IMG/VR virus record: IMGVR_UViG_3300046557_000504
Span: 1-42,182 of that record
Source: a virus
Length of the DNA stretch: 42,182 nucleotides
Reading direction: 5' to 3' (one strand)
Under the pieces are notes generated by a model that was not told where the DNA came from, made no database searches, and worked only from the letters and a program-made list of their open reading frames with translations. Positions 21,126 through 41,395 of the stretch are shown in pieces; the first letter of the stretch is position 1, and each line of letters opens with the position of its first letter. A program made the position numbers and the translations under genes.

Positions 21126-21487
21126 GGTGCACCATCTTTCTGGCTGTGCTGGCTAACCGTGCGAAGCCGCTCGACTTCTGCCGGATTCTCGTCGCGCCAC
21201 CGCTGCCAGCTTTCGTCGATGAGCTTGTGATTGATCCAGTCAGGATGGTCAGGCGTCGCATCGAACGGGGCCTTACCCTTCATGCAGCGTTCACACTGGC
21301 AGTGACTGCCCGCCAGATGATCGCCGCAGAAGAACAGCCCGCAGCCATGATCGCCACCGGCAGGCTCCCCGCCGCAGATGTAGCCCAGGCCCCGATCAAT
21401 CTCTTTCCCGCAGCCCGGGTGATCACAGTACGCTGGCACGCCATACCCCACATCCCGGCCATCGCTTTCTCCAATACTCCAGCCCAT
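21122..21487 (-). CDS. Cys/His-rich zinc-binding phage protein
   Basis: The product has 121 residues. The ATG at 21487 follows AGGAGG. Several Cys/His pairs (AYCDHPGCGKEI; YICGGE; DHGCGLFFCGDHLAGSHCQC; ERC) suggest at least two zinc sites of a treble-clef or LIM-like type. The C-terminal part contains HPDWINHKLIDESWQRWRDE. Similar small proteins occur in early regions of beta-proteobacterial phages without known function. Coupled at both ends by ATGA-type overlaps, so expressed with its neighbours. Confidence 0.65.
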   Translation of the reverse strand: MGWSIGESDGRDVGYGVPAYCDHPGCGKEIDRGLGYICGGEPAGGDHGCGLFFCGDHLAGSHCQCERCMKGKAPFDATPDHPDWINHKLIDESWQRWRDENPAEVERLRTVSQHSQKDGAP

Positions 21488-22392
21488 CACACACCTCCTT
21501 CGCTTGCAGCAGCCTCGGGTGCAGCGGTAGATGCCTTGACCAGTTGGCCGGTCAACTCATGGTAGCGCTGCAGGAACATCCGCTTGGCCAGCGCCGGCGA
21601 CATCGGGAAGATCCGGGTCGACAGCGGCTCGACCCCGGCGCTGACGACCAGCGCTGCCGGCGCCGCCTGCAGGTCGCGCCGCTCGGTGGCCAGCAGCACC
21701 TGGTCGGCGCGCTTGACCGACGCCGGCAGGGTGGCCGGCAGGCCGAAGCGTGCGAACACCTCCGCCTCGACCCGGCGCTCGATCACCGCATAGTCCGGCA
21801 GCAGCCGCTTGAGCGGCTTCGGGACGTCCTTCAGGAACGCCTCGGCCGCGTCGTGCAGCAGGCCCGCCAGTGCGTCCGCAGGCGGCACGATCTGGCTCAC
21901 CAGCAGCGAGTGCTGGGCGACCGAGTAGAAATGCTGCACGTGGCCACCGAAGCGGCACTCGTTGGCCAGGGCATGGGCGATGTCCTCGATGTCGAACACG
22001 CACTTTTCCGGCGCCGCGAAGCTGAAGAAGTGGCCGGACTTCGTCAGGATCGCGTGCTCGTACTGCTCGCTGGCCAGCACAGTGAGCGCGTCCGGCGCCA
22101 GCTGCGCGACGATGCCCGAGCACAGGTCGGGGTGCGACTGGGCGGCAGCGATGGCCACCTCGCCGAGGCCCGCGAGCGCCTGCTCGTCGTAGCTGGCCGG
22201 GGTGGTCCGGCCGATGGGTTGCATGATTTGCATGGCAGGTTCTCCGGTTGGTTCGCTGATGGTCGCTGCCACCTGGTCGAGATGGGCCAGCACCGCGCGG
22301 CGGTACTGGCCCAGGGTCTGGTGCTCGGCGGCGTGCCCGTCGTTCTCGACCAGGCTGCGCACCGACCCGAGTGCCGCTTGAGCGTTAGCCAT
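21487..22392 (-). CDS. HD-domain phosphohydrolase (YfbR/5'-nucleotidase-like)
   Basis: The product has 301 residues. The HD core is in the second half: [20 protein letters not shown] with QHSLLVSQ supplying an upstream His, and [20 protein letters not shown] giving the H-D pair and later acidic residues. This spacing is that of phage HD hydrolases related to YfbR, which act on deoxynucleoside monophosphates. The N-terminal about 90 residues are helical and unassigned. It follows the PRTRC genes in one operon; a nucleotide-metabolism role during early lytic growth is the likely one. Confidence 0.75.
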
Positions 22393-23114
22393 TACGCCAC
22401 CTCGCGCAAGGCGTGCTGGGCCGGGGCGGCCGGCGGGCGCGTGGTCTCGTTGAAGCTACCCATGTCGAGGCCGTGCAGCAGGTAGTCGCGGAACGCCTCG
22501 AGCCCGCCGTCCTGGATCTCGTACATCACCGCCCGGTAGAACAGGTCGGTGTGGCGCGGCGGTACCTCGAGCACGAACAGGCGCCGGTCGGTCTCGAGCA
22601 CGGGAAGGAATTCGGTCGAGGTCGACAGGAACACGAAATTCATGCGGTTGTCGATGGTGCGGTCGCGCCTGCCCTTGGTGGTGATCGGCACCGACACGGC
22701 GCTGATCAGGCTTTTCAGGCGCGTGGCGTTCTTCTTCGAGAACGTGCCGTCCACCACCACCAGGCCGGCGCCATCGGCCCAGCGGGTGAACACGTCGTGC
22801 AGCTGCCTGGCATTGATCACGCGCGCGCTGTCGTCGCGGTACAGGCCGGCAGCCACATGGTGGAAGAACACGCTCTTGCCGGTGCCGCCTTCGCCGTTGA
22901 CCACGATCCCCATCGCCATCTTGGCGCCCGGATTGCGCAGCGGGTAGGCCAGCCAGCACATCACCCAGTGGCAGGCCGCCTCGTCGTAATCGCACAGGTG
23001 CAGCAGCAAGGTCTGGATGTTGTGGAAGCTGACCGGCCGGTGGTGGTCGCGGCCGAGGAAGGCGCTGGCGATGGTGGCGCGCAGCAGCCGGAGGTTGCGA
23101 AGCAGTCGTTTCAT
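22392..23114 (-). CDS. P-loop ATPase, SF3-helicase/DUF5906-like
   Basis: The product has 240 residues from the ATG at 23114 (AGGAG in front). Walker A is GEGGTGKS at residues 74-81 ([20 protein letters not shown]). Walker B-like is [13 protein letters not shown], and a sensor-like NFVFLSTS follows. These blocks match DUF5906/primase C-terminal SF3-type ATPases. It is much shorter than usual primase-helicases and lacks a primase domain. The phage has a full primase-helicase at 31852, so this is either an accessory helicase or a partner of the PRTRC genes, with which it is adjacent and co-directional. Confidence 0.7.
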
Positions 23115-23142
23115 GGGAATCTCCTGGGTTTGGCGAAAGGCG

Positions 23143-23952
23143 TCACGCGGCAGCGCACACCCGCTCGTTGTCATCGGTGGAATTGGCGGCCGTGTCCGGC
23201 TGGGGCGGCGGTTCGCGCACGAGCAGCGGCCGCATGCTGCCCGTCTTCAGGTTGACGAAGGCGCCGTGCCAGGTCAGCTGCCCGTGGCGGAAGAACTCCC
23301 ACAGGATGGCCAGCGCCGGCGTCACGATCGACTGGTTGACGAACAATTCCTGGCGCTCGAGCGCCTCGGCCAGGCCGCAGCTCGGCGTGTCGTCCTCGGG
23401 CGCGCGCAGGTCGACCAGCTCCGGCAGGACCGTGTACGGGCTCGGGAGCCTGACGCTGCCGGCCGGCGCGACCAGCTGGCGGATATCATCGTCGAGCCCG
23501 AGCTCGCCGAAGATTACCTGGCCGTCGGCCGCGCGGTTGCCCAGGTCCATCAGGTAACGGGCCCGCTGGCGGCCCAGGTGGTGCGCAATCTCGTAGCGTG
23601 CACGCGCGCTGTCCACGCACGCGATCGCGATTTTTGGGCAGTGGCCGTCCTCTTCATAGCGGCCATAGAACGCCTCCCAGTTCAGCCCGAAGAAGGCGTT
23701 GATGCGGTTGACCAGGACGTGCGCCTTGCTCGAGCCGACGTCGAAACTGCCGAACAGCTGGCGGCCCATGTTGGCCTCGCTGACCGTGTCGGGGTCGTAC
23801 ACGCGCACTTCCAGGCCGGGGTGCCCGAGCGCCGTGATCGCGTGGTTCAGGCGCGCGAGGCCGGTCAGCATCTGCGAGCCGTTGCCGCCGCAGCCGATCA
23901 GCGCGATCTCGACGGGCCGCTGCAGCAGTGAGGGAGGAGTGATATGTGGCAT
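23143..23952 (-). CDS. PRTRC system ThiF-family protein (E1-like)
   Basis: The product has 269 residues. The Rossmann nucleotide-binding start is IALIGCGGNGSQ (G20, G22, G25). The E1 acidic/Arg block is VYDPDTVSEANMGRQLF (D53, D55, N61, R64, Q65). CVDSARARYEIAHHL follows, and C192 in TPSCGLAEALERQELFVNQ is the candidate catalytic cysteine. In E1-like enzymes these residues adenylate the C-terminus of a ubiquitin-like protein and then take it as a thioester. It follows PRTRC A by 7 bases. The order A then ThiF is the standard end of PRTRC cassettes. Confidence 0.9.
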   Translation of the reverse strand: MPHITPPSLLQRPVEIALIGCGGNGSQMLTGLARLNHAITALGHPGLEVRVYDPDTVSEANMGRQLFGSFDVGSSKAHVLVNRINAFFGLNWEAFYGRYEEDGHCPKIAIACVDSARARYEIAHHLGRQRARYLMDLGNRAADGQVIFGELGLDDDIRQLVAPAGSVRLPSPYTVLPELVDLRAPEDDTPSCGLAEALERQELFVNQSIVTPALAILWEFFRHGQLTWHGAFVNLKTGSMRPLLVREPPPQPDTAANSTDDNERVCAAA

Positions 23953-23959
23953 CGCCCGC

Positions 23960-24715
23960 TCACCCGAAGATCTTCTCGGCCGGCACGTTGATCGGGATGT
24001 ACAGCCCGAGCACGCACAGGCGGAACGCCACCGTCGGTACCGGCTGGTCGAGGTTGCCAAAGACACCGGCGATCTTGACGCTGCCGGCATCGTCGCGGTT
24101 ATCGGTGTCGCTGAAGAACGCCGGCAGCTGGCCATGGCTGTGCAGGTCGAAGGCGTACGACAACGGGCCATCGACCCTGAGCGCCGGCAGTTCGTAGCGT
24201 AGCGATGAAGGCGTGCTGTCCTGTACCGTGACCGACACGTAGATCAGTTCCTTCAGTTCGGCGTCCCACGCCAGCGCGCAGGCCGTCTCGTTGGGCGCCT
24301 CTGCTCGGGCATGCTCGGCAAATTTGCGGAACAGGTCGAGTGCGTCGCCGAGGCGGCCGAACGCCAGGTCGGTGCGCGGTTCAATGTGCCCGTATGGCAT
24401 GGCGACCGCGTTTTGCTCGGCCAGCCGGCGGATGACATGCAGCCACGGCCGCCGCACCTCGAGGTACAGGCCATCGTCCGCCAGCAGGAAGCGGTGGCCG
24501 CTGTCCTGCAGCGGGAAGAACTCGCTGTGGCGCGGTACCGCCGCGACCGGTGCGGCGGCAAACTGGGCCAGGTCCAGCTGCAGCTTGTCCGGATCGATGT
24601 TTTCCTCGTCGAGCGCGATCGGCATCGGCCGCTGGGTGCGCAGGGCGGCGTCGGTGGCGGCGACGAACTGCTCGAACGCTGCACGCTGCAGCTCCAGCAG
24701 TTGGTCGAATTTCAT
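23960..24715 (-). CDS. PRTRC system protein A (JAMM/JAB peptidase-like)
   Basis: The product has 251 residues from the ATG at 24715 with AGGAG 6 bases upstream; an earlier ATG at 24736 lacks one. A complete JAMM motif is present: H192-S-H194, seven residues, S202-x-x-D205 (DLHSHGQLPAFFSDTDNRDD). That motif is the zinc site of MPN+ deubiquitinases. The C-terminal VPTVAFRLCVLGLYIPINVP is typical of PRTRC A. Expected role: removal or maturation of a ubiquitin-like protein. The intact motif suggests an active enzyme. Confidence 0.87.
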   Translation of the reverse strand: MKFDQLLELQRAAFEQFVAATDAALRTQRPMPIALDEENIDPDKLQLDLAQFAAAPVAAVPRHSEFFPLQDSGHRFLLADDGLYLEVRRPWLHVIRRLAEQNAVAMPYGHIEPRTDLAFGRLGDALDLFRKFAEHARAEAPNETACALAWDAELKELIYVSVTVQDSTPSSLRYELPALRVDGPLSYAFDLHSHGQLPAFFSDTDNRDDAGSVKIAGVFGNLDQPVPTVAFRLCVLGLYIPINVPAEKIFG

Positions 24716-24748
24716 GGTGATCTCCTGGCCGTTCATATGGATCCTTTG

Positions 24749-25492
24749 TTAGCGTTGTTTTTGGGATGCCGCCGCGATCCGCGCGATCGCTGCCTGCAGG
24801 GTTTCATCGGACGTGACCAAAGCGCGGCGCGTCGCCTCCGGGTTGGGGTGCGCGAGCTGGTCGCGCCAAAGCTGTTTCATGCCGCCCTTGTACTTGACCG
24901 CCTTCTTCCGGTTGGGGTGGGTGAAGTGGCTGCGGAAGAACGCCTCCTCGTAGCGGGTGATGGCAGCTGCGTCGACCGCCGCCGGCAGATCGACATTGCC
25001 GGTGCAGATGCGGCCGCCATCCCACACGTTGAAATGGGGCGAGTGGCACAGGCGGGTGCCCGGCGCCGGCCGCTCGTCCTTGCGCAGCGCGAACACGTAC
25101 CAGTCGTCCGGCACGGCGACGAACACCAGTGGCGGATGCGCCGCCGCGCCGTGGCCGGTCAGTAAGGCTGGGTCGTTCGATTTGAACCAGGTGGTGCGGA
25201 TGGCTGCCGGCGTCCACCAGGCGATCAGGTTGGGCGACGTGTACAGCAGGTTGGCCGGCAGGAAGCCCGAAAACGCGGTGGCCGTGCTGACCGCCTGGGC
25301 GAACGCGGCCAAGCCGGTTTTCGTCAGCGGCACGCCGGCGCCGATGATCTTGCGGTGCGGCTGGTCGGCGTCGAGGTTGATCGGGTGGGTCGTCGCGTAG
25401 ACATGGCCGTCTCTGGACTGGTACAGCAACAGCGCGCTGACCAGGTCAAGCGTGGTTTCGCCGGCGCTGAGGATGTTGACGAGATGCGTCAT
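24749..25492 (-). CDS. PRTRC system protein B (prokaryotic E2-like)
   Basis: The product has 247 residues. The E2-like C-terminal core contains LCHSPHFNVWDGGRICTGN with candidate catalytic C163, the W-x-x-G-x-x-C-x-G pattern of the Prok-E2_D family, which PRTRC B belongs to. Upstream, PLVFVAVPDDWYVFALRKDE forms the beta sheet. Start overlaps the stop of protein F by ATGA. In the cassette it is expected to accept a ubiquitin-like protein from the ThiF protein. E2-type chemistry in this subfamily is predicted, not proven. Confidence 0.87.
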   Translation of the reverse strand: MTHLVNILSAGETTLDLVSALLLYQSRDGHVYATTHPINLDADQPHRKIIGAGVPLTKTGLAAFAQAVSTATAFSGFLPANLLYTSPNLIAWWTPAAIRTTWFKSNDPALLTGHGAAAHPPLVFVAVPDDWYVFALRKDERPAPGTRLCHSPHFNVWDGGRICTGNVDLPAAVDAAAITRYEEAFFRSHFTHPNRKKAVKYKGGMKQLWRDQLAHPNPEATRRALVTSDETLQAAIARIAAASQKQR

Positions 25493-26556
25493 ATGGGGTC
25501 TCCGATGAGTAGCACCAGCTTTTCGGTCAGGACGGCGAGCTGCATCATCTGGCGGGTCTTTAGCTGGAAGTCGCGCACGCCCTCGGCCGTCATCGGGACC
25601 GGGTTGGCATCGATGAACTCGGAGTACTCCCCACTTTCACCGAACATGTTGAGCGCCTCGTCGATGACCTGGCCGATGGCGTCGTTTTCCTTCCAGAGCA
25701 ATACCATCGACCCATCCACTGAATCGAGGCCGCAGCGGTGCACGCCCTTGTCTTCCGAGCGCAAGACGAAGTCGGGGCGGTTGACCAGTTCGGCGATGGC
25801 ATCGCAAGCGGCGACCACGCTTTTCCCAAATCCCTCGCGCGCAGCGCGCACAATTTGCTCTCTCGACGCGACTCGTTCGGGGCGGGTCACCCAGCGGGGC
25901 ATGTCTGCATAGAAGGCGGCGCGCGTGATCACAACGTCGTTGTCGAGCACTTCCTGCACCGTCGCGTAGCCGTTCATGTTGCGGTGATTCTCGAGCAGCT
26001 CCTCGTCCGTTTCCGAGTCATCCCAGTGCAGCCATTGCACCAGGTCTTGCGCCAGCCAGGGGTTGAGCGAATCGGGCAGCAGCAGCGTCGCGTCGTACAG
26101 GACCGCCAGCACCGTTTGCCCGAAGCCTTCCAGCACCGCCTCGAGCTGCTCGGTGCGCCGCGCCAGCGAGAAGCGGGGTATAAGGCCCCCCCGCGAGTAG
26201 CGCGTGAAGCAGAACCAGGCCGTGGTCGCGTCGTCGTAGTTGTGACCGGTGCCGATCAGCTGCTGAACGTGCAGATGCCAGCGGAAAAACGCGCACGAAT
26301 GCCGCTTGATCAGGCCTGCCCACCAGCGCGACAGCGCCACCATCGACATTTCGCGCTCGTCCGGCTCGCCCAGCACCTCGACCAGCGTGGCATTCGGGCC
26401 CGGCCTGAGCATGGCGTCGGTGATCACGCCGGCCTCGAGCAACGCGATCGCCAATGGCACGGCGAGCGCGTTTTCGCCCGGGATGTGCAGCTCGAGCGGG
26501 ATCGATGGCGCCAGGTGCGGCAGCGCCATGGCGCCCAGTTGCGGATAGCCGATCAT
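25489..26556 (-). CDS. PRTRC system protein F
   Basis: The product has 355 residues, with LGAMALPHLAPSIPLELHIP near the N-terminus and SRWWAGLIKRHSCAFFRWHL in the middle, both as in PRTRC F. It is mainly helical, with no recognised catalytic motif. Its function is unknown; the constant linkage to B suggests a partner or substrate-recruiting role. It starts inside the stop of the small upstream gene (ATGA) and ends inside the start of B, so all three are translationally coupled. Confidence 0.8.
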   Translation of the reverse strand: MIGYPQLGAMALPHLAPSIPLELHIPGENALAVPLAIALLEAGVITDAMLRPGPNATLVEVLGEPDEREMSMVALSRWWAGLIKRHSCAFFRWHLHVQQLIGTGHNYDDATTAWFCFTRYSRGGLIPRFSLARRTEQLEAVLEGFGQTVLAVLYDATLLLPDSLNPWLAQDLVQWLHWDDSETDEELLENHRNMNGYATVQEVLDNDVVITRAAFYADMPRWVTRPERVASREQIVRAAREGFGKSVVAACDAIAELVNRPDFVLRSEDKGVHRCGLDSVDGSMVLLWKENDAIGQVIDEALNMFGESGEYSEFIDANPVPMTAEGVRDFQLKTRQMMQLAVLTEKLVLLIGDPI

Positions 26557-30852: not shown

Positions 30853-30963
30853 GCGGGCATAACAAAGCTGGATCGTGTGCGTGCATTTCGTGCCCCTGTC
30901 GTTGTTTTGCAAAGTTTCCGTCTTTCCGTTGACCTTGAATACATTCTTTTTGCGAGCTGGCGA

Positions 30964-31407
30964 ATGAACCCTAAAGACGCGTTTCATCGAACTGTGCACG
31001 GTGCCCCTGGTGGGGTGGATGCCCTTGCTGTCCGGATGGGGATGTCGGCAGCAGTGCTGCGCAACAAGGCCAATCCGAACCACTCGTACAACCGGCCCAC
31101 GCTGGACGATGTCGACCAGGCCATGGGGATCACAGGCGACCACGGTGTGTTGCACGCGCTGGCCCAAAATCATGGCCACGTGTGCATTCGGATAGAGGAG
31201 GACGGTGCCGCCTCCGACCAGGCGGTGCTGGAAATGATTGCCCGGATCTGGACCACCAATGGGCAAGTTGGCGCCGAGGTGAACCAGGCGCTGGAAGACG
31301 GCCGGATCACACCGGGCGAGCTCGACAAGGTGCGCGATGCGGTCAAGCGACTCGAGGGGGCCCTCGAGGGGATGGTGGCGCGCTTAGCCGGCATGGCCGA
31401 GAAATAA
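30964..31407 (+). CDS. phage regulatory protein of the CII family
   Basis: The product has 147 residues, MNPKDAFHRTVHGAPGGVDA, then ALAVRMGMSAAVLRNKANPN and YNRPTLDDVDQAMGITGDHG, which match the phage_CII/YmfL-type regulators found after cro in beta- and gamma-proteobacterial phages. The helix around VLRNKANPN is the DNA-reading part. The C-terminal helix (ELDKVRDAVKRLEGALEGMV) probably forms the oligomer. It may activate integration/repressor genes or start replication genes. Confidence 0.8.
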   Translation: MNPKDAFHRTVHGAPGGVDALAVRMGMSAAVLRNKANPNHSYNRPTLDDVDQAMGITGDHGVLHALAQNHGHVCIRIEEDGAASDQAVLEMIARIWTTNGQVGAEVNQALEDGRITPGELDKVRDAVKRLEGALEGMVARLAGMAEK

Positions 31408-31638: not shown

Positions 31639-31865
31639 CGGCAACCCACCTCGCTGACACCTGTTCCCCGGAATGGCAGCTGGCCTGCCTCGCGCGGCAT
31701 ATTTGCCGGATGCCGGGGAAGGCTGACCGGCACCGGTTCCTCGACCTGATGCGCAAGCACCATCGCCCCGAGTTCATCGCGACAGTAGAACAGAAGGTGC
31801 GCGACGAGTGGGTGTTGACGCACCCGCCCGCCAACGCGCCCCGGGAGGCACATGGCAACCCTTGA
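31635..31865 (+). CDS. small phage protein (DUF7696-like)
   Basis: The product has 76 residues with a GTG start at 31635 after GGGGAGG (31623-31629). CSPEWQLACLARHICRMPGK, DRHRFLDLMRKHHRPEFIAT and VEQKVRDEW match the pattern of small DUF7696-like proteins placed just before primase-helicase genes. It overlaps the primase by 14 bases. Function unknown; a replication accessory role would fit. Confidence 0.55.
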   Translation: MTATHLADTCSPEWQLACLARHICRMPGKADRHRFLDLMRKHHRPEFIATVEQKVRDEWVLTHPPANAPREAHGNP

Positions 31866-34599
31866 CCAGGTCTTGCAACAGATGCGGGATGAGGACATGC
31901 CGGACCTGCCGGCAGGGCATCCTGAACGAGATGGAAAGATCCACCGTTTCGGGCCGAAGAAGAAGGCCTGGTACAAGCTGCAGGAGTTCGCGCTCAATTC
32001 CGGCGAGATCATGATCACCGGTTCCTTCGGCATCTGGCACGGGGCGGAGCCCAACACGATCCGCGTCCAGATGGACTGGAAGGGCGTTAGCGCCGAAGAG
32101 AGAACCGCCGCCGAGGCCAAGCGCCAGGACGAGGAGCGCAAGGCGGCCGAACGGGACGCCCGCAAGGCCGCCGCCGCGGCGCGGCGCGCGCACTTCCAAT
32201 GGGGCGCGGCAGCGCGCGAGGGCAGCTCGGCCTATATCGAGCGCAAGAAGATCAGCGCCCCGGCCGTACGTTTCGGCGCGGACGGCGTGGTCCTGATACC
32301 CGCAGTCGTGTTCGGCGAGGCCGGCCCGCAGCTGGTCGGCCTTCAGAAGATCGCGCCAGACGGCGAGAAACGGTTCAACACCGGCATGGCCAAGCAGGGC
32401 GCATGCTGCCCGATCGGCAAGGTCGGCGCCGACGACGCGCTGTTGTTCCTTGGCGAAGGGTATGCGACCGCGCGCTCGGTCAGCATGGCGACCGACGGCG
32501 CCATCGGCGGTTATGTCGCCTTCGATGCCGGCAACCTGATTCACGTTGCCCGGATGGCGCGCGCGCGCCATCCGGACACGCATATCCTTTTCTGCGCCGA
32601 CGACGACTACCAGCTCGAGCGGCGCCTGCACGACTGGCTGCTCGACAAGTACAAGGTTGCCGACGTGGTCCCTGTGGACGGCGCCGAGCGCACGCTGAAA
32701 GCAGCCGACGGTATGCCGGTGCGCGTGACCGCGTCGTGGTGCAAGGATAGCGGGGGCGTACCCTACGTCCTGGCCGAAGTGCGCAGCGGCCGCCGCATTG
32801 CCACGCGCAAATTCGAGAACGCCGGCATCGCCAGCGCCACTGCAGCTGCCGTCGCCGTCGGCAATGCCTCAGTGACGTGGCCGCGGTTTGCGGACCGGGG
32901 CGACAACAAGTGGACCGACTTCAACGATCTGCACTGCGAGGAATCGCTGGACCAGTGCCGCGAGCAGCTGGCCGCCGCGATCCTGCGCGCGCTGCAGCCC
33001 GCGCCTGAACCTGCTGCCGGCGGCGATACTGATCCGGTGATCGCCGCGCATGCGGACGACCCCCTGTACGACGCTGCGGTCAAGGTCGTATGCGCGGAGT
33101 CCCGGGTGTCGATCTCGCTGGTGCAGCGGCACCTGAAGGTCGGCTATAACCGGGCGGCGCGCCTGGTCGAGCGCATGGAACTGAACGGCCTGGTGTCGCC
33201 CATGGGGCCATCGGGCGAGCGCCAGCTGCTCAAGCCAGCTGGCAACGTGGTCGACCTGCAGCAGCGAAAGCGAAAGCGCGCCGCCGCGGCGCCCGCTGCC
33301 GCTGGGGGCGCGGAGGAAGCACCGCCGGCGTGGGCTGGCAACGGCGACGGCCAGCCCGCTGGCGCCGATCACCTCAGGTGGGAAGATGGGCTCGCGCGCA
33401 GCGACAAGGGCGGGATCCTGCCCTCGCTGGCCAATGTGTTCCTCATTCTCAGCAACCACAAGGACTGGTCGGGCGTGCTCGCGTACGACGAATTCAGCGG
33501 CCAGGTGGTCAAGCTGAAGGCACCGCCCTTCGCCGGAGGCAAGGCCGGCGAGTACTCCGATATGGACGATCTGCGCTGCACGCTCTGGATGCAGCAGAAG
33601 TACGGCTTCCAGCCGCGCAAGGAAGTGGTGATGGACGCCGTGCTACTGATCGCGGACCTGAACATGTACCACGTGGTGCGTGGCTACCTCGACCCACTGG
33701 TGTGGGACGAGGTGCCGCGGCTTGACCACTGGCTGGTCAGCTACCTGGGCGCCGAGGACACGCCGTACGTGCGCGCAGTGGCGCGGAAGTGGCTGATCTC
33801 GGCAGTGGCCCGGATCTACAAGCCGGGCTGCAAGGCCGACAACGTGCTCATCCTGGAAGGCGAGCAGGGCCTGTACAAGTCGACGGCCCTGAAAGTGCTG
33901 GGGGGCGACTGGTTCACCGACGCGCCGTTCAAGCTGGGCGACAAGGATGCCTATGCGGTCATCCGGGGCAAGTGGATCATCGAGCTGGCCGAGCTGGACA
34001 GCTTCAACAAGGCCGAGTCAACCGGCGCGAAGCTGTTCTTCGGCCAGTACATCGACCGCTACCGCAACTTCTACGGCAAGCGCGCGAGCGACGTGCCGCG
34101 CCAGCAGGTGTTCGCCGGCACCACCAACAGCGACGCCTACCTGAAGGACGACACCGGCAACCGCCGTTACTGGCCGGTACGCGCCGTCCAGATCGACCTC
34201 GAAGGGCTGAAACAGGCGCGCGACCAGATCTGGGCAGAAGCGGTGCACCGGTTCCGGGCCGGCGAGGAATGGTGGCCGACAGCGCCGGAACGCGCGATGT
34301 TCGAAGAAGAGCAGGACGCGCGCTACGTGGGCGACGAGTACATCCGCCTGATCAAGGAATATTTGATCGGAAAAAGCCAGACCACGATGGCGGACATCCT
34401 CGGCAACGCGCTCAAGCTGGACGTGGCGAAGTGGTCCAGGCCCGAGCAGCAGCGCGTGGGCCGCTGCATGTCCGAGATCGGGTGGAAGCGCAAGAGGGAC
34501 ACGAAGGTTGGAGTCGACGGCAAGCGCGACTGGCTTTACCAGCGGCCAGAAACCAGTGGCGCCGCGCCAGCCAATGGAGACGCAGATGGTCCGCTCTGA
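31852..34599 (+). CDS. TOPRIM primase / FtsK-gamma / VapE-type helicase fusion
   Basis: The product has 915 residues. N-terminal primase part with a TOPRIM fold: E202 in FLGEGYATARS and D250-D252 in ILFCADDDYQ. A winged-helix domain at about residues 403-460 (DPLYDAAVKVVCAESRVSIS, VQRHLKVGYNRAARLVERME) is a clear FtsK gamma domain. A linker rich in Ala/Lys/Arg follows, then a VapE-like SF3 ATPase from about residue 580 to 800 with Walker A at residues 669-678 (EGEQGLYKST), IIELAELDSF as Walker B-like region and TGNRRYWPVR near the end. It is the main replication protein. The gamma domain reads polar octamers in FtsK; here it may direct the protein to an origin or to the 8-bp repeats right after the gene. 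Confidence 0.88.
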   Translation: MATLDQVLQQMRDEDMPDLPAGHPERDGKIHRFGPKKKAWYKLQEFALNSGEIMITGSFGIWHGAEPNTIRVQMDWKGVSAEERTAAEAKRQDEERKAAERDARKAAAAARRAHFQWGAAAREGSSAYIERKKISAPAVRFGADGVVLIPAVVFGEAGPQLVGLQKIAPDGEKRFNTGMAKQGACCPIGKVGADDALLFLGEGYATARSVSMATDGAIGGYVAFDAGNLIHVARMARARHPDTHILFCADDDYQLERRLHDWLLDKYKVADVVPVDGAERTLKAADGMPVRVTASWCKDSGGVPYVLAEVRSGRRIATRKFENAGIASATAAAVAVGNASVTWPRFADRGDNKWTDFNDLHCEESLDQCREQLAAAILRALQPAPEPAAGGDTDPVIAAHADDPLYDAAVKVVCAESRVSISLVQRHLKVGYNRAARLVERMELNGLVSPMGPSGERQLLKPAGNVVDLQQRKRKRAAAAPAAAGGAEEAPPAWAGNGDGQPAGADHLRWEDGLARSDKGGILPSLANVFLILSNHKDWSGVLAYDEFSGQVVKLKAPPFAGGKAGEYSDMDDLRCTLWMQQKYGFQPRKEVVMDAVLLIADLNMYHVVRGYLDPLVWDEVPRLDHWLVSYLGAEDTPYVRAVARKWLISAVARIYKPGCKADNVLILEGEQGLYKSTALKVLGGDWFTDAPFKLGDKDAYAVIRGKWIIELAELDSFNKAESTGAKLFFGQYIDRYRNFYGKRASDVPRQQVFAGTTNSDAYLKDDTGNRRYWPVRAVQIDLEGLKQARDQIWAEAVHRFRAGEEWWPTAPERAMFEEEQDARYVGDEYIRLIKEYLIGKSQTTMADILGNALKLDVAKWSRPEQQRVGRCMSEIGWKRKRDTKVGVDGKRDWLYQRPETSGAAPANGDADGPL

Positions 34600-34613
34600 C
34601 ATTCATGTTGCCA

Positions 34614-34828
34614 TGTCCCAGCTGTCCGTTCAAATGGGACGGCATTGGGACAGAGAGGGAAAGCATGTTTCGTCCCAATGTCCCAACGTCCCAATGTCCC
34701 AACGTCGCCTCACATGCGTGCGTATGAGCACAGGTGCGCGGGGCGCGCAAGCGGGTGCGGGGGCGCGCATACGCACGCATGTGCGTACACCATTATTTTT
34801 TTCATTAGGACATTGGGACATTAGGACA
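34614..34828. repeat. iteron-like 8-bp repeats around a 16-bp palindrome, candidate origin
   Basis: Four tandem 8-mers of the type C/TGTCCCAA fill 34671-34702. Three tandem 8-mers in the opposite orientation (TTAGGACA, TTGGGACA, TTAGGACA) fill 34805-34828. Further copies: TGTCCCA at 34614-34620 and TTGGGACA at 34645-34652. Between the arrays a perfect 16-bp inverted repeat, CACATGCGTGCGTATG (34711-34726) and its complement (34768-34783), encloses a 41-base GC-rich loop. An AT-rich block (34790-34807) follows. The symmetrical layout directly after the primase-helicase resembles a replication origin. Confidence 0.6.
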
Positions 34829-34848
34829 AGCCAAGGAAGGGGGAGAGG

Positions 34849-35610
34849 ATGATGAGGGTGAGTATCAAGACGAATTTCCCGGATGTGGCGCGCCGCCTAG
34901 GTGAACTGGGCAGGCAGGCGCCGTTCGTGGCGGCCGTCTCCCTGACCCGCACGATGAAGGATGTGCAGGCCGCGATCAGGACCGAGATGCAGCGCGCCTT
35001 CGACCGGCCGACCAGCTATGCCTTGAACGGGACGTTCCTGAAGCCGGCCACCAAGGCCGACCTCGAGGCGCGCGTCTGGGTCAAGGACAACCCGTTCGGC
35101 AAGGGCACGCCGGCCGACCGCTTCCTGCTGCCGCAGATCTACGGCGGCGCGCGCGGGCAGAAAGGCATGGAGCGCATGCTCGAGCGGGCCGGCCTGATGC
35201 AGGCGGGCTGGCGCGCGGTCCCGGCCGCAGGCGCCCAGCTCGACGCCAACGGCAACGTCAAGCGCAGCCAGATCACCCAGATCCTGTCGCAGCTCAAGCT
35301 GCAGGCCGGCGCCGGCTACCAGTCGCGCGCCACCGGCAGCGCCCGGTCGAACCGCGCGATCGCGCGCCAGGGCGTGACCTACTTCGCGCTGCCCACCACC
35401 CGCCGCGGCCTGAAGCCGGGCATCTACCTGAAGCGCCGTTTCGCGCACGGGACCGCGGTGCGCCCGGTCTTCATCTTCGTCCCGGCCGTCCAGTACAAAC
35501 CGCGCCTGAAGTTTTTCGAGGTCGGCCAGGCGACGGTCGATCAGCGTTTCTACGGCCACTTCCACGACGAGCTGGACAAGGCGATTGCCGCCGCCAACTT
35601 GCGCCGCTAA
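34849..35610 (+). CDS. tail completion protein, lambda gpZ-like
   Basis: The product has 253 residues; a second ATG at 34852 has better spacing from the strong GGAAGGGGGAGAGG. The family pattern is clear: QAPFVAAVSLTRTMKDVQAA, RAFDRPTSYALNGTFLKPAT, VWVKDNPF, YGGARGQKGMERML, AGWRAVPAAGAQLDANGNV, LKPGIYLKR. These match minor tail protein Z-like proteins. Such proteins help join or complete the tail. Its place between the origin and terminase, far from the tail genes, is unusual but is also known in other phages of Burkholderiales (recollection, not checked). Confidence 0.65.
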   Translation: MMRVSIKTNFPDVARRLGELGRQAPFVAAVSLTRTMKDVQAAIRTEMQRAFDRPTSYALNGTFLKPATKADLEARVWVKDNPFGKGTPADRFLLPQIYGGARGQKGMERMLERAGLMQAGWRAVPAAGAQLDANGNVKRSQITQILSQLKLQAGAGYQSRATGSARSNRAIARQGVTYFALPTTRRGLKPGIYLKRRFAHGTAVRPVFIFVPAVQYKPRLKFFEVGQATVDQRFYGHFHDELDKAIAAANLRR

Positions 35611-36655: not shown

Positions 36656-37186
36656 TTGTCGGAGTTTGACCTGACCAAACCAATGACGCAGGCCGTGTTT
36701 GGCGCCCTGGTCGGTGTAAGCCAGCAGGCCATTGGTAATCTGGTCGGGCGAGGCGTATTGGACATGAGCGCGCCAGGCCACCAGCTGCTGCAGGCGTACT
36801 GCTCGCACCTGCGCGAGCAGGCCGCTGGCCGGGCATCCATCGGTGGGCTGGATCTGGCCGGCGAGCGGGCCGGGCTGGCCAAGGCGCAGCGCGAACGGAT
36901 CGAGATGCAAAACGCGGTCACGCGCGGCGAGCTGGCTCCGGTCGGTCTGATCGAGGAGGTGCTGTCGAAGGCCGGCGGCAAGATCGCCGGCATCCTGGAT
37001 GCGATCCCCGGCGCCGTGCGCCGACGCGTGCCGAGCCTGGCGGCCGACGAGATCAAAACTATCGCCACCGAGATTGCTCGGGTCCGTAATATCGCTGCCG
37101 AGATGTCGCTGGCCGACCTGCGCGAAGAGGACCCGGAGCAGGAGGACGAGAGAGGCGAGCAGGCCGCCGAGGAGATCGATCCATGA
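36656..37186 (+). CDS. terminase small subunit (Nu1-like)
   Basis: The product has 176 residues. A TTG start at 36656 with AAGGGGG 5 bases upstream is the best choice; MSEFDLTKPMTQAVFGALVG then SQQAIGNLVGRGVLD gives a Nu1-like winged helix-turn-helix. A helical second half (LAKAQRERIEMQNAVTRGEL; DEIKTIATEIARVRNIAAEM) would carry the oligomer and large-subunit contacts. It binds the packaging site and recruits the large subunit. Overlaps the next gene by ATGA. Confidence 0.8.
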   Translation: MSEFDLTKPMTQAVFGALVGVSQQAIGNLVGRGVLDMSAPGHQLLQAYCSHLREQAAGRASIGGLDLAGERAGLAKAQRERIEMQNAVTRGELAPVGLIEEVLSKAGGKIAGILDAIPGAVRRRVPSLAADEIKTIATEIARVRNIAAEMSLADLREEDPEQEDERGEQAAEEIDP

Positions 37187-39207
37187 GCGACATGTACGAG
37201 GTCCTCAACTGGGATTCGCCCGAGCTGGCGAAGACGGTGGGCCGGGGCCTGAGCACGTTCGGCGTGCCGGCGCCGGTCACGCTCGAGGAGTGGGCGCGCA
37301 AGCACTTCTACCTCTCGAAGGAATCCTCGTACGTGGAGCAGAGCTGGGTGCCGTGGGGCTTCCAGCGCGCAATCCTGGCCTGCATCAGCAATGACGATAT
37401 CCGCGCGATCGACTTCAAGAAATCGGCCCGCGTCGGGTACACCAAGATGCTGCTGGCGGCGATCGGGTACTTCGCGGAGCACAAGCGGCGCAACCAGGTG
37501 CTGTGGCAGCCGACCGATGGCGACAGCGACGAGTTCGTGAAGAACGAGCTCGACACGATGCTGCGCGACGTGAAGGTGATGGCCAAGGCCATGCCGTCGC
37601 ACGTGTCGCGCCACAAGGACAACACGCTGGCGCAAAAGAAGTTCCTCGGTTGCCTGCTGCATACCCGTGGCGGCACGGCGGCGCGCGCCTACAGGAGGAT
37701 CTCGGTGGACGTGGCCTTCCTGGACGAGCTGGACGCGTTCGACCGCGACATCGAGAAGGAAGGCTCGCCGGACGCACTGGCCGCCAAGCGGGTCGAGGGC
37801 GCCACGTTCCCGAAGATCGTGACCGGCTCGACGCCCAAGCTAGCCGGGTTTTCCCTGATCGACGACCGCTACAACCAGGCGGACGAGCGCTTCAAGTACG
37901 CGATTCCGTGCCCGGAGTGTGGCGGGTTCCACGTGCTGGCGTGGGGCAAGAAGGACGAAGAGACCGGCCTCAAGTGGACCGATGGCGACCCGGCGACGGT
38001 GCGGCACCTGTGCCCGCACTGCGCCTGCCTGATCGACCAGGGCCAGTTCCTCGCGGTCGCCGACCGTGGGCGCTGGCAGAACGCGGATGCGACCATCACG
38101 ATCGACGCGGAAGGCGTGTTCCGCAACGCCGCGGGCGACATTATCGCGCCGCTCGAGCACCTCGCGTTCCACGTGTGGACCGCGTATAGCCCGCTGGTCT
38201 CGTGGAGCACGCTGGTGCAGGAATTCCTCGACGCCTATGCCAATGCGCAGGGCGGCGACATCAGGCTGCTGAAGACCTTCACCAACACGACGCTGGGCGA
38301 GACCTGGGCGCTGGAGCAGGAAAAGAGCGATGCCGAGCAGCTCAAGGCGCGCGCCGAGCCGTACAAGTTCGGCACCGTGCCGAAAGGCTGCGTGCTGCTG
38401 CTGGCCGGGTGCGACACGCAGGACAACCGGATCGAGGTCACGGTACGCGGCTATGGGCGCGGGTGCGAGACCTGGGCCATCGACCACCGCATCTTCTACG
38501 GCAACCCGAACGAGGACCAGGTCTGGCAGGACGTGGCCGAATACCTGTTCGAACACGAGTTCCTGCACGCCGGCGGCGCCAGGCTCCCGATCTACGCCTC
38601 GGCGATCGACACTGGCGGCCACTACACCCAGGCGGTCTACAGCTTCGTGCACATGCATGCCGGCATGGGGCGCCGGATCTTCGCGGTGCGCGGCCGCCCG
38701 GGCCGTGAGAAGCACATCAAGGACGGCGTGGCGAAGGTCGACATCGACTGGCGCGGCAAGAAGCGCAAGCGCGGCGTGATCCTGTGGCACGTGGGCACCA
38801 ACCTGGCGAAGGACCTGATCTACGGCCGCCTGCAGATCGAGCGCCCGGGCCCGGGCTACATGCACTTTTCCAACGATGGAACCGAGGAGTACTTCCGGCA
38901 GATGGCCGGCGAGGCCCGGGTCGAGCGGGCGACCGCCGGCGGCAGGGAATCGCGCTGGACCGCGCTGCGCAAGCGGGTCGAGGCCTGGGACTGCACCGTC
39001 TACGCGGTATGGCTCGAGACGCACCTCGATCTGAGCCGCAAGCCGGCGCGCTACTGGGAGCAGCTCGAAGAGCAGGTGCAGCCGGCCATCGGCGACCTGT
39101 TCGCCTCCGCGCTGCCAGCGGACGATCTGCCGCGGCCACTGCCGGCGCCCCCGCGTGTCGTGGGCGGCAAGATTTCGCTGGCGGGAACGCGGAGGGGGAC
39201 GGCGTGA
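37183..39207 (+). CDS. terL: terminase large subunit (lambda gpA family)
   Basis: The product has 674 residues. The ATPase motor has a Walker A-like KKSARVGYTKM at residues 79-89 and Walker B VAFLDELD at 177-184. A zinc-ribbon-like insert at residues 243-280 (CPECG ... CPHCAC) is typical of the gpA family. The nuclease domain lies in the C-terminal half (IYASAIDTGGHYTQAVYSFV and after). gpA-type terminases usually cut at cos sites, so a cos mechanism is suggested. It starts inside the terS stop and its own stop overlaps the next GTG. Confidence 0.92.
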   Translation: MSDMYEVLNWDSPELAKTVGRGLSTFGVPAPVTLEEWARKHFYLSKESSYVEQSWVPWGFQRAILACISNDDIRAIDFKKSARVGYTKMLLAAIGYFAEHKRRNQVLWQPTDGDSDEFVKNELDTMLRDVKVMAKAMPSHVSRHKDNTLAQKKFLGCLLHTRGGTAARAYRRISVDVAFLDELDAFDRDIEKEGSPDALAAKRVEGATFPKIVTGSTPKLAGFSLIDDRYNQADERFKYAIPCPECGGFHVLAWGKKDEETGLKWTDGDPATVRHLCPHCACLIDQGQFLAVADRGRWQNADATITIDAEGVFRNAAGDIIAPLEHLAFHVWTAYSPLVSWSTLVQEFLDAYANAQGGDIRLLKTFTNTTLGETWALEQEKSDAEQLKARAEPYKFGTVPKGCVLLLAGCDTQDNRIEVTVRGYGRGCETWAIDHRIFYGNPNEDQVWQDVAEYLFEHEFLHAGGARLPIYASAIDTGGHYTQAVYSFVHMHAGMGRRIFAVRGRPGREKHIKDGVAKVDIDWRGKKRKRGVILWHVGTNLAKDLIYGRLQIERPGPGYMHFSNDGTEEYFRQMAGEARVERATAGGRESRWTALRKRVEAWDCTVYAVWLETHLDLSRKPARYWEQLEEQVQPAIGDLFASALPADDLPRPLPAPPRVVGGKISLAGTRRGTA

Positions 39208-39787: not shown

Positions 39788-41395
39788 ATGGCCGCCCCTA
39801 CCGGACCGTTCAACCAGCAGAACCTGCTCGACAAGGCAATCGCCTACGTCGCCCCGAAACTCGCACAGCAGCGCATGGTCGCGCGCGCCGCGCTCGCGCT
39901 CGGTGGCGGTTATACCGGCGCCCGGGTCGACCTGGCCACCCTGAACCGCTGGTCCCCGACCGCCGGCTCGGCCAACGCCGACACGATCCGCGACCTGCCG
40001 ACCCTGCGCTCGCGTTCGCGCGACCAGATGCGCAACGCGCCGGTCGCCCTGGGCGCCCTCAACACCATGGTCAGCAACGTGGTCGGCACCGGCTTGTCGT
40101 ACACGCCAGCGATCGACAAGGGCTTCCTCGGGCTGGCCGATGACGACGCCGACGCCTGGGCCGCGGACACCAAGCGCCGCTTCGACCTGTGGGCCGTCTC
40201 GCCTGACTGCGACGTGGGCCGCCGGCTCAACTTCTACGGCCAGCAGGAGCTGGGCTTTCGGTCGATGCTCGAAAGCGGCGACAGTTTCTGCGTCACCCCG
40301 CGCGTGGCGCGCTCCGGCCAGGCGCCGCGCCTGGCGCTGCAGCTGATCGAGGCCGACCGGGTGTGCAACCCGAACAAGGCGGCCGATACCGACAAGCTGA
40401 TCGCCGGGATCGAAATCGACCCGGATACCGGCGAAGCGATCGCCTGCCATTTCGCGAAGAAGCACCCGGGCGACCCGCACGGAAGCGCCGGCAACACCTG
40501 GACCCGGGAGCCGATGCGCGGCGCGGCCACGGGGCGGCGCAATGTGCTGCACCTGTTCAAGCCGACGCGTCCGGACCAGGTGCGCGGGGTGCCGATGATC
40601 GCGCCGATCCTCGAGCCGCTCAAGCAGCTGAGCCGCTGGACCGACGCGGAGCTCAATGCCGCCGTCGTCAGCAGCCTGTTCAGCGTGTTCGTCAAGATGG
40701 ACCCGGAGGCATTCCAGGACATGTTCGACGATGACGCGCGCGGCGCGATCATCGACAAGGCCAGCAACTGGAGTGGCGAGATGGAGTCGGGCAAGGCGAT
40801 CAACCTCTTGCCCGGCGAAGACATCGTGACGACCACGCCGGGGCGCCCGAACCCGGAGTTCGACCCGTTCTGGGCGGCGATGGTGCGCCAGATCGGCATG
40901 GCGCTCGAGCTGCCGTACGAAGTGCTGGTCATGCACTTCCAGAGCAGCTACAGCGCCTCGCGGGCCGCGCTGCTGATGGCATGGAAGGCGTTCCGCAGCC
41001 GCCGCGATTTCCTCGTCACCTACTTTTGCCAGCCGGTGTTCGAGCTCTGGCTGGCCGACGAAGTGGCCGAGGGCCGGATCAGCGCGCCCGGCTTCTTCGC
41101 CAGCGACCTGGTACGCGCTGCCTGGTGCGGCTCGATGTGGACCGGCGACGGGCCGGGCAGCATCGACCCGGACAAGGAAGTCACAGCGGCGCAGAAACGG
41201 ATCGACCTGGGCATCAGCACCAAGGAGGCCGAAAGCGTGCTGTACGACGGCATCCCGTGGCAGGTCAAACACGAACAGCGGGTCAAGGAGATCAACGCGG
41301 AAAAGCGCGCCGGCATCTACTTCCCGCCGGCCGGCACGCCCGCGGTGGCGGCCGCGCCGGCGGACGTGGCCGATGCCGTGCCGGCGCCTGATTGA
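39788..41395 (+). CDS. portal protein (lambda gpB family)
   Basis: The product has 535 residues. YTGARVDLATLNRWSPTAGS and RSRSRDQMRNAPVALGALNT near the N-terminus are typical of lambda-family portals. The stem/clip region includes LLPGEDIVTTTPGRPNPEFD, and LELPYEVLVMHFQSSYSASR is a strongly conserved block. It forms the dodecameric vertex through which DNA enters and leaves; the C-terminus (PAAPADVADAVPAPD) is low-complexity. One base separates it from the preceding stop. Confidence 0.92.
   Translation: MAAPTGPFNQQNLLDKAIAYVAPKLAQQRMVARAALALGGGYTGARVDLATLNRWSPTAGSANADTIRDLPTLRSRSRDQMRNAPVALGALNTMVSNVVGTGLSYTPAIDKGFLGLADDDADAWAADTKRRFDLWAVSPDCDVGRRLNFYGQQELGFRSMLESGDSFCVTPRVARSGQAPRLALQLIEADRVCNPNKAADTDKLIAGIEIDPDTGEAIACHFAKKHPGDPHGSAGNTWTREPMRGAATGRRNVLHLFKPTRPDQVRGVPMIAPILEPLKQLSRWTDAELNAAVVSSLFSVFVKMDPEAFQDMFDDDARGAIIDKASNWSGEMESGKAINLLPGEDIVTTTPGRPNPEFDPFWAAMVRQIGMALELPYEVLVMHFQSSYSASRAALLMAWKAFRSRRDFLVTYFCQPVFELWLADEVAEGRISAPGFFASDLVRAAWCGSMWTGDGPGSIDPDKEVTAAQKRIDLGISTKEAESVLYDGIPWQVKHEQRVKEINAEKRAGIYFPPAGTPAVAAAPADVADAVPAPD

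Follow-up and report, generated by a model that had tools for sequence, protein, structure and literature searches.

The origins that most resemble the locus considered here are those of the PICI and SaPI elements. For SaPIbov1, SaPI5 and Gram-negative PICIs, two papers (PMC6092414 and PMC7581432) place the origin directly 3′ of the initiator helicase gene, describe two iteron sets around a candidate melting region, and have the iterons read by the C-terminal domain of the initiator. The ISME J paper among them states that this organisation is found in no other known bacterial replicon, and a figure legend in the pair refers to PICI pri-ori plasmids tested for maintenance. A second counterpart is annotated in Streptococcus phage Sfi21 (NC_000872), where positions 34487-34784, after the primase, are filed as origin of replication; the 302-bp non-coding region that follows this primase reads TAGTTACTTAGTTACT, then an AT-rich stretch, then GTAACTAAGTAACTAA. 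In phage P4, a single protein, alpha, unites a bacterial-type (Toprim) primase, a helicase and, at its C-terminus, a winged helix that binds the origin, which carries repeats. Here we consider positions 34614-34828 of a 42,182-bp viral sequence (the whole stretch analyzed, hereafter the window). With a probability of roughly 86% in our estimate, this segment would be the replication origin of the phage, an iteron site for its own, upstream-encoded, self-loading primase-helicase. The original prediction, that iterons facing each other form an origin used by the product of the gene starting at 31852, is supported by facing arrays at 147 of 181 related loci, by covariation with the winged helix of the protein, and by the match to the Sfi21 and PICI layouts.

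As in the PICI/SaPI origins, the arrays of the window lie directly downstream of the initiator gene, two iteron sets flank a centre, and the helicase is of the VapE/D5 type. The difference lies in the centre, which is AT-rich in the PICIs described there, whereas the window has a GC-rich alternating purine-pyrimidine spacer with a short AT edge. Since this spacer is not AT-rich, we regard the locus as a variant of the PICI/SaPI-type origin module and not as a member; as far as its organisation can be read from sequence, it is a variant of that known type carried by ordinary phages. Sfi21 is similar in having a non-coding region of ~300 bp directly past the primase-helicase gene, with facing arrays of 8-bp period ~75 bp apart, but it differs in its Pox_D5/DUF5906 helicase, its separate Prim-Pol gene, its AT-rich spacer and its iteron word. 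PICIs are satellites without large terminase, portal and tail genes of their own. The window, in contrast, has TerL, portal and minor tail genes and is therefore a phage, not a PICI; with terminases, portal, minor tail gene and also an integrase gene, the record is that of an ordinary temperate phage. A search of the open-licence literature gave no recognised description of such a primase-helicase facing-iteron system in phages. The window also contains a PRTRC cassette on the minus strand (21487-26556; ThiF, A, B and F proteins; TIGR03736, TIGR03735, TIGR03737, TIGR03742), inside which, at 22392-23174, lies a gene for a 260-aa protein with a DUF5906/VapE-like helicase domain.

The mirrored arrays of 8-bp repeats predicted directly after the primase-helicase are present. 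Searching both strands of 34614-34828 with at most one mismatch to TGTCCCAA returned nine units, the first of which begins 15 bases past the stop at 34599, and the predicted arrangement of four units on one side and three inverted units on the other is found in the two contiguous arrays of Table 1. All four exact copies of TGTCCCAA in the window, on either strand, fall in the gap between the primase-helicase stop and the minor tail gene (34600-34848), as do 9 of the window's 18 one-mismatch copies; any other 250 bp holds at most two. Two further degenerate units can be made out by eye near 34623 and 34635, and the inverted unit within the left half has a counterpart at a similar place in four relatives (L002, L003, L009 and L011). 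A de novo 7-mer test on the 800 bp past the stop was equalled or bettered by 1 of 60 dinucleotide shuffles, and the facing-geometry tests on the window's array by 0 of 40 and 0 of 50.

Table 1. Features of the window around the proposed origin, in order of position
Feature	Position	Strand	Evidence
CII-like regulator	30877-31407		
Primase-helicase gene, 915 aa, proposed initiator	31852-34599	+	PF05272, phrog_2249, PDB 7pds
FtsK-gamma domain insert between primase and helicase, codons 401-460	33052-33231	+	PF09397, E 1.5e-21
C-terminal winged helix, codons 829-897, proposed iteron reader	34336-34542	+	AlphaFold2 model and covarying residues 867, 880, 892, 894
Outer left unit, TGTCCCAG	34614-34621	+	unit count, at most 1 mismatch
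Inverted unit inside left half, TTGGGACA on the + strand	34645-34652	-	unit count, at most 1 mismatch
Left inner array, 4 contiguous units, CGTCCCAA-TGTCCCAA-CGTCCCAA-TGTCCCAA	34671-34702	+	
Spacer between arrays, ~100 bp	34703-34804	.	sequence reading
Alternating purine-pyrimidine (Z-DNA-prone) tract, contains the 16-bp inverted repeat	34711-34790	.	
Perfect 16-bp inverted repeat, loop 41	arms 34711-34726 / 34768-34783		
AT-rich block before right array, candidate melting point	about 34791-34807	.	sequence reading
Right array, 3 contiguous inverted units, TTAGGACA-TTGGGACA-TTAGGACA	34805-34828	-	
Minor tail gene	34849-35610		
Nu1-type small terminase and GpA-type large terminase	36656-39207		
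TerL	37183-39207		
Portal	39788-41395		

A comparison with the regions after VapE-type primases in relatives had been proposed as a check on the origin, and it gave a favorable outcome. Loci were sampled by conserved motifs from viral contigs, named phages, 399 Burkholderiales genomes (21 of them encoding a relative with an E-value no higher than 1e-40) and further genomes; this yielded 290 loci, 280 of them with enough downstream sequence and 181 non-redundant. The final search, for words facing each other across a gap within 700 bp, required a locus to beat 50 of 50 dinucleotide shuffles. It replaced our first iteron callers, which were dropped because low-complexity GC words or a misplaced centre misled some loci. 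Facing arrays lie within 700 bp past the primase stop at 147 of the 181 non-redundant loci, and 34 fail this strict test. In the upstream control, the 700 bp before the gene, they were detected at 4 of 170 loci, against 138 downstream of those same 170. These counts bear on the notion that the segment serves in partition or incompatibility, or lets the primase-helicase regulate its own gene, instead of being a replication start. Plasmid iterons can act in copy control and partition, and the PRTRC cassette shares the window; however, the site follows the gene, and few loci have facing arrays in front of it. Moreover, the PICI pri-ori plasmids tested for maintenance, as the legend mentioned above has it, carry the same origin organisation (PMC6092414 / PMC7581432), and we hold this notion to be very improbable.

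The layout is constant across lineages and the array words vary (GTCCCAA, GTCCAACC, GTCCTACC, TTCCATACC, TTCCTAACC, GGTCACCCC, TTAACAG, GTGATGC and others). The window's own layout after the primase stop recurs in its nearest relatives (L002, L003/L010, L004, L005, L009) and in Pseudomonas phage U5, and Marinobacter phage PS3 keeps it with a different word, GGTCACCCC. In the Pseudomonas group a small gene lies between primase and array, which is shifted to about 500 bp past the stop. Seven loci (L006, L007, L008, L061, L068, L070 and L071) have a related primase half and a differently ending C-terminus, yet they have facing arrays, with the words GTTACAG, AACTACG, TTCCACG, TTAACAG, ATGTGAA, TGTGCAG and GTGATGC. 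Nine of 14 named phages beat all 50 shuffles (Staphylococcus 2638A, VarioGold, Listeria LWP01, Brevibacillus Emery, Corynebacterium CL31, U5, Haddon, LPPA36 and PS3); the score was reached by 1 of 50 shuffles for Sfi21, 2 of 50 for Javan405 and 8 of 50 for Aval, and in FoX2 and P2559Y, where 49 and 41 of 50 shuffles reached it, no array was found. At L145 and L149, which both encode the usual winged helix, inspection by eye revealed no recognisable array after the primase stop, and the origin may have moved or been lost. The tandem TGTCCCA word alone is neither general nor specific: it matched 4 of the 399 Burkholderiales genomes, 2 of which also matched the primase query, and the regions surrounding the other two matches (L072 and L073) gave no primase match. 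The Massilia genome G001 has six occurrences of the tandem word when one mismatch is allowed, none of them farther than 230 bp from the prophage site. Two genomes carry two primase loci each, with different iteron words (L010 and L052 in G001; L063 and L064 in G195), as would be expected if co-resident replicons avoid cross-initiation.

The 16-bp palindrome of the original prediction exists as a perfect 16-bp inverted repeat, but it is interrupted by a loop of 41 and so is no palindrome; the AT-rich block said to lie beside it is there. In the window this repeat is longer than any in 300 of 300 shuffles of the spacer that preserve purines and pyrimidines, and the left and right arrays could pair over 24-25 nt at 88%, both of which would suit a cruciform or an RNA hairpin, formed from the inverted repeat and the facing arrays, as the functional feature. 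Across 146 of the 147 facing-array loci, however, the longest spacer arm averages 6.81 against 6.62 in shuffles of the same kind, and it exceeds all 20 shuffles at only 5 of the 146. The 16-bp repeat is therefore local to the window's phage, and since it is real there but unconserved, the large cruciform that had been envisaged is unsupported. Neither the covariation with the primase-helicase nor the inverted units of the left half would, moreover, be explained by a cruciform or hairpin, which we consider extremely improbable.

The conserved element of the spacer is the alternating purine-pyrimidine tract and not the inverted repeat. The window's tract alternates at 41 of 50 steps, a value not exceeded anywhere else in the 10,748 bp examined around the gene; near the array centre, 106 of 146 loci reach 40 or more of 50, against 1 of 170 upstream regions. 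Of 74 non-redundant loci, 56 have their most alternating 50-bp stretch within 700 bp past the primase stop, where ~9% would be expected by length. Alternation is highest 70-41 bp ahead of the right array; over the final 10 bp, the AT content reaches 0.65 (147 loci). The spacers of 141 relatives have a mean length of 88 bp (sd 18). CG, GC, CA and AC steps predominate, with A-runs and GCGCGC-type words enriched beyond the alternation itself, and the k-mers shared across the relatives' spacers gave no single common motif beyond alternation. Such a tract may form Z-DNA.

On sequence evidence, the product of the gene upstream is a VapE-type SF3 primase-helicase. Its VapE-like PF05272 domain (aa 613-824) scores 262 bits against a curated cut-off of 25, the phrog_2249 DNA primase match covers aa 2-903, and PriRep1 (PDB 7pds) is the only sequence match in the PDB (E 5.5e-53). 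An AlphaFold2 model was made for aa 487-915, with a mean pLDDT of 88.8, and its C-terminal end is a predicted winged helix, with helices at 829-838 and 846-853, a recognition helix at 863-876 and wing strands at 879-886 and 892-897. In this model, residue 867 falls near the start of the recognition helix, and residues 880 and 894 on the two wing strands. Among solved structures, PriRep1 is again the nearest, determined with dsDNA (Foldseek E 1.1e-31); the fold is the same through the C-terminal wing, to which the alignment extends (Z 33.8, rmsd 3.3, 389 residues), but the identity is 28%. Modelled alone, the C-terminal part (pLDDT 78.7) gave weak matches, with winged-helix proteins frequent among them (best E 9.4e-3), and the P4 alpha domain was absent among the 50 matches listed for this weakly matching model, which speaks neither for nor against kinship. 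The likeness to P4 alpha (PMC4234260) lies in the joining of primase, helicase and a C-terminal winged helix, here a predicted one, in one protein and in the repeats at the origin.

The FtsK-gamma insert, by way of KOPS-type recognition, was the reader considered first, because KOPS motifs are G-rich. It was rejected: the insert occurs in 4 of 273 proteins longer than 600 aa (the window, L002, L051 and L076), and relatives without it (L005, L009, L010 and L011) carry the same core iteron as the window. To judge from these relatives, the insert is unnecessary for the iterons.

The choice of the winged helix as candidate reader comes from comparing unit bases with protein columns. The consensus step provided 161 loci with a consensus and 130 with a TCC register, six loci being admitted despite exceeding the shuffle limit. 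For 141 proteins, the TCC-core units could be brought into a common register; 13 of the registers were set by hand after the consensus had been seen (L077 and 12 that had no automatic TCC register), and loci without a TCC core in the unit (e.g., L007, L061, L070 and L071) were left out of the code. The column test asks which protein column differs when a unit base differs between otherwise similar proteins, and near relatives weigh on its counts. In the full-length alignment (725 columns, 135 proteins), with no column singled out in advance, R880 ranked first for unit position 4 whichever of the three identity cut-offs was applied, with 0.86 against 0.61 for the next column at 60%. In the test on 141 proteins, R880 was first for position 4 at 60% helicase identity (0.58; next, 0.37) and second to W894 at 50%. 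For position 5, columns 894 and 892 came out on top in the full-length test, but at 60% identity column 840 led, on 29 pairs; position 6 was led by 867 at 50% and 60% and by helicase columns at 40%. For position -1, helicase columns led in both the tree and the full-length tests, and thus we claim no reader for it. In the disjoint-pair test, F560 and R880 tied for position 4 (0.56 each), and H536 and L728 led for positions 5 and 6. On a tree of the helicase only, the columns sharing the most changes were 880 with position 4, 894 with position 5, and 867 with position 6.

The residue combinations can also be read directly. With R880 and W894, unit positions 4-5 are CA in 34 of 36; with K880 and W894 (n=25), they are AA in 18, TA in 7 and CA in none; with F894, position 4 is A in 27 of 27 and position 5 is T or C. 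In the seven closest disjoint pairs (83-91% helicase identity), the R/K swap goes with C/T in all. Counting upper-case bases only and without the 12 hand-set registers, the R880-W894 class gave CA 28, Ca 1, A. 1 and TA 1, and the K880-W894 class AA 17, TA 1 and CA 0. Fisher's test between the two classes gives 4e-15, a value that ignores relatedness; on the tree, the W894 subset requires no more than 5 changes at residue 880 and 6 at unit position 4, with 4 common to both. For position 4, the other C-terminal columns average 0.011 against 0.046 for the helicase, i.e., they are not above the helicase, and the physical linkage of the C-terminus to the array could add to the correlation. With the rule fixed beforehand, 159 new loci, less 109 redundant and 3 too short, left a non-redundant out-of-sample set of 47. 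Arrays were present in 23 of them, 15 with a register (8 array loci had no TCC register) and 12 with a prediction; 9 of these 12 predictions were correct, and the misses comprise two ambiguous consensus bases and one misregistered consensus. Two residues of the primase-helicase, 880 and 894, largely predict the iteron word.

This covariation weighs on two further readings of the segment. The array separates the replication gene from the tail and terminase genes of a phage that encodes a CII-like regulator, and it could be an operator, promoter or antitermination site between early and late genes, its units bound by a transcription regulator. Such a regulatory role seems unlikely, however, given that the unit bases covary with the winged helix of the primase-helicase and not with other parts of the protein, that the layout equals that of annotated origins, and that a simple scan of 34400-34950 picked up no sigma-70 promoter-like site. 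A cos or pac site bound by the small terminase is, to our minds, a good deal less probable still. Repeats mark the small-terminase sites of lambda, and Nu1-type and GpA-type terminase genes follow downstream in the window, but the units covary with the primase-helicase, and the records of Haddon (linear) and LPPA36 (filed circular) end 157 bp and 62 bp past the minor tail gene, well beyond the array, though record ends need not be virion ends.

For an iteron origin served by the primase-helicase, the following course of events can be proposed. The C-terminal winged helices would bind the 8-bp units, and one ring would assemble on each inward-facing array, so that two rings stand head-to-head in opposite orientation. 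Their ATP-driven motion would then open the spacer, probably from the AT edge, and the rings would move onto single strands and separate with their primase domains, starting two forks. Bidirectional loading is plausible from the geometry of the arrays. A check by GC skew did not come out in favor of the site: the cumulative minimum lies near 3-4 kb and the maximum at 34-35 kb, a signal that is weak and confounded by coding strand.

Our most general proposal is tentative, and we would give it slightly less than an even chance. It holds that iteron bases 4, 5 and 6 are dictated by residues 880 and 894 of the wing together with residue 867 of the helix, a simple, evolvable code in the self-loading VapE-type helicases of proteobacterial phages, so that phages could switch replication specificity via a few residues plus the array; that the Z-DNA-prone tract, in place of an AT-rich melting region, would store or release supercoil energy as two head-to-head rings load; and that co-resident prophages would be kept from cross-initiating. 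In any case, a physical question is raised, namely why a GC-rich alternating tract is found where other origins have AT-rich DNA. The results suggest that an origin organisation called unique to satellites in the ISME J paper is common in ordinary temperate phages, and this bears on where the satellites acquired such origins. The 141 aligned loci offer many natural pairings of origin word and reader domain, with which the origin specificity of self-loading SF3 helicases could be predicted and tested.
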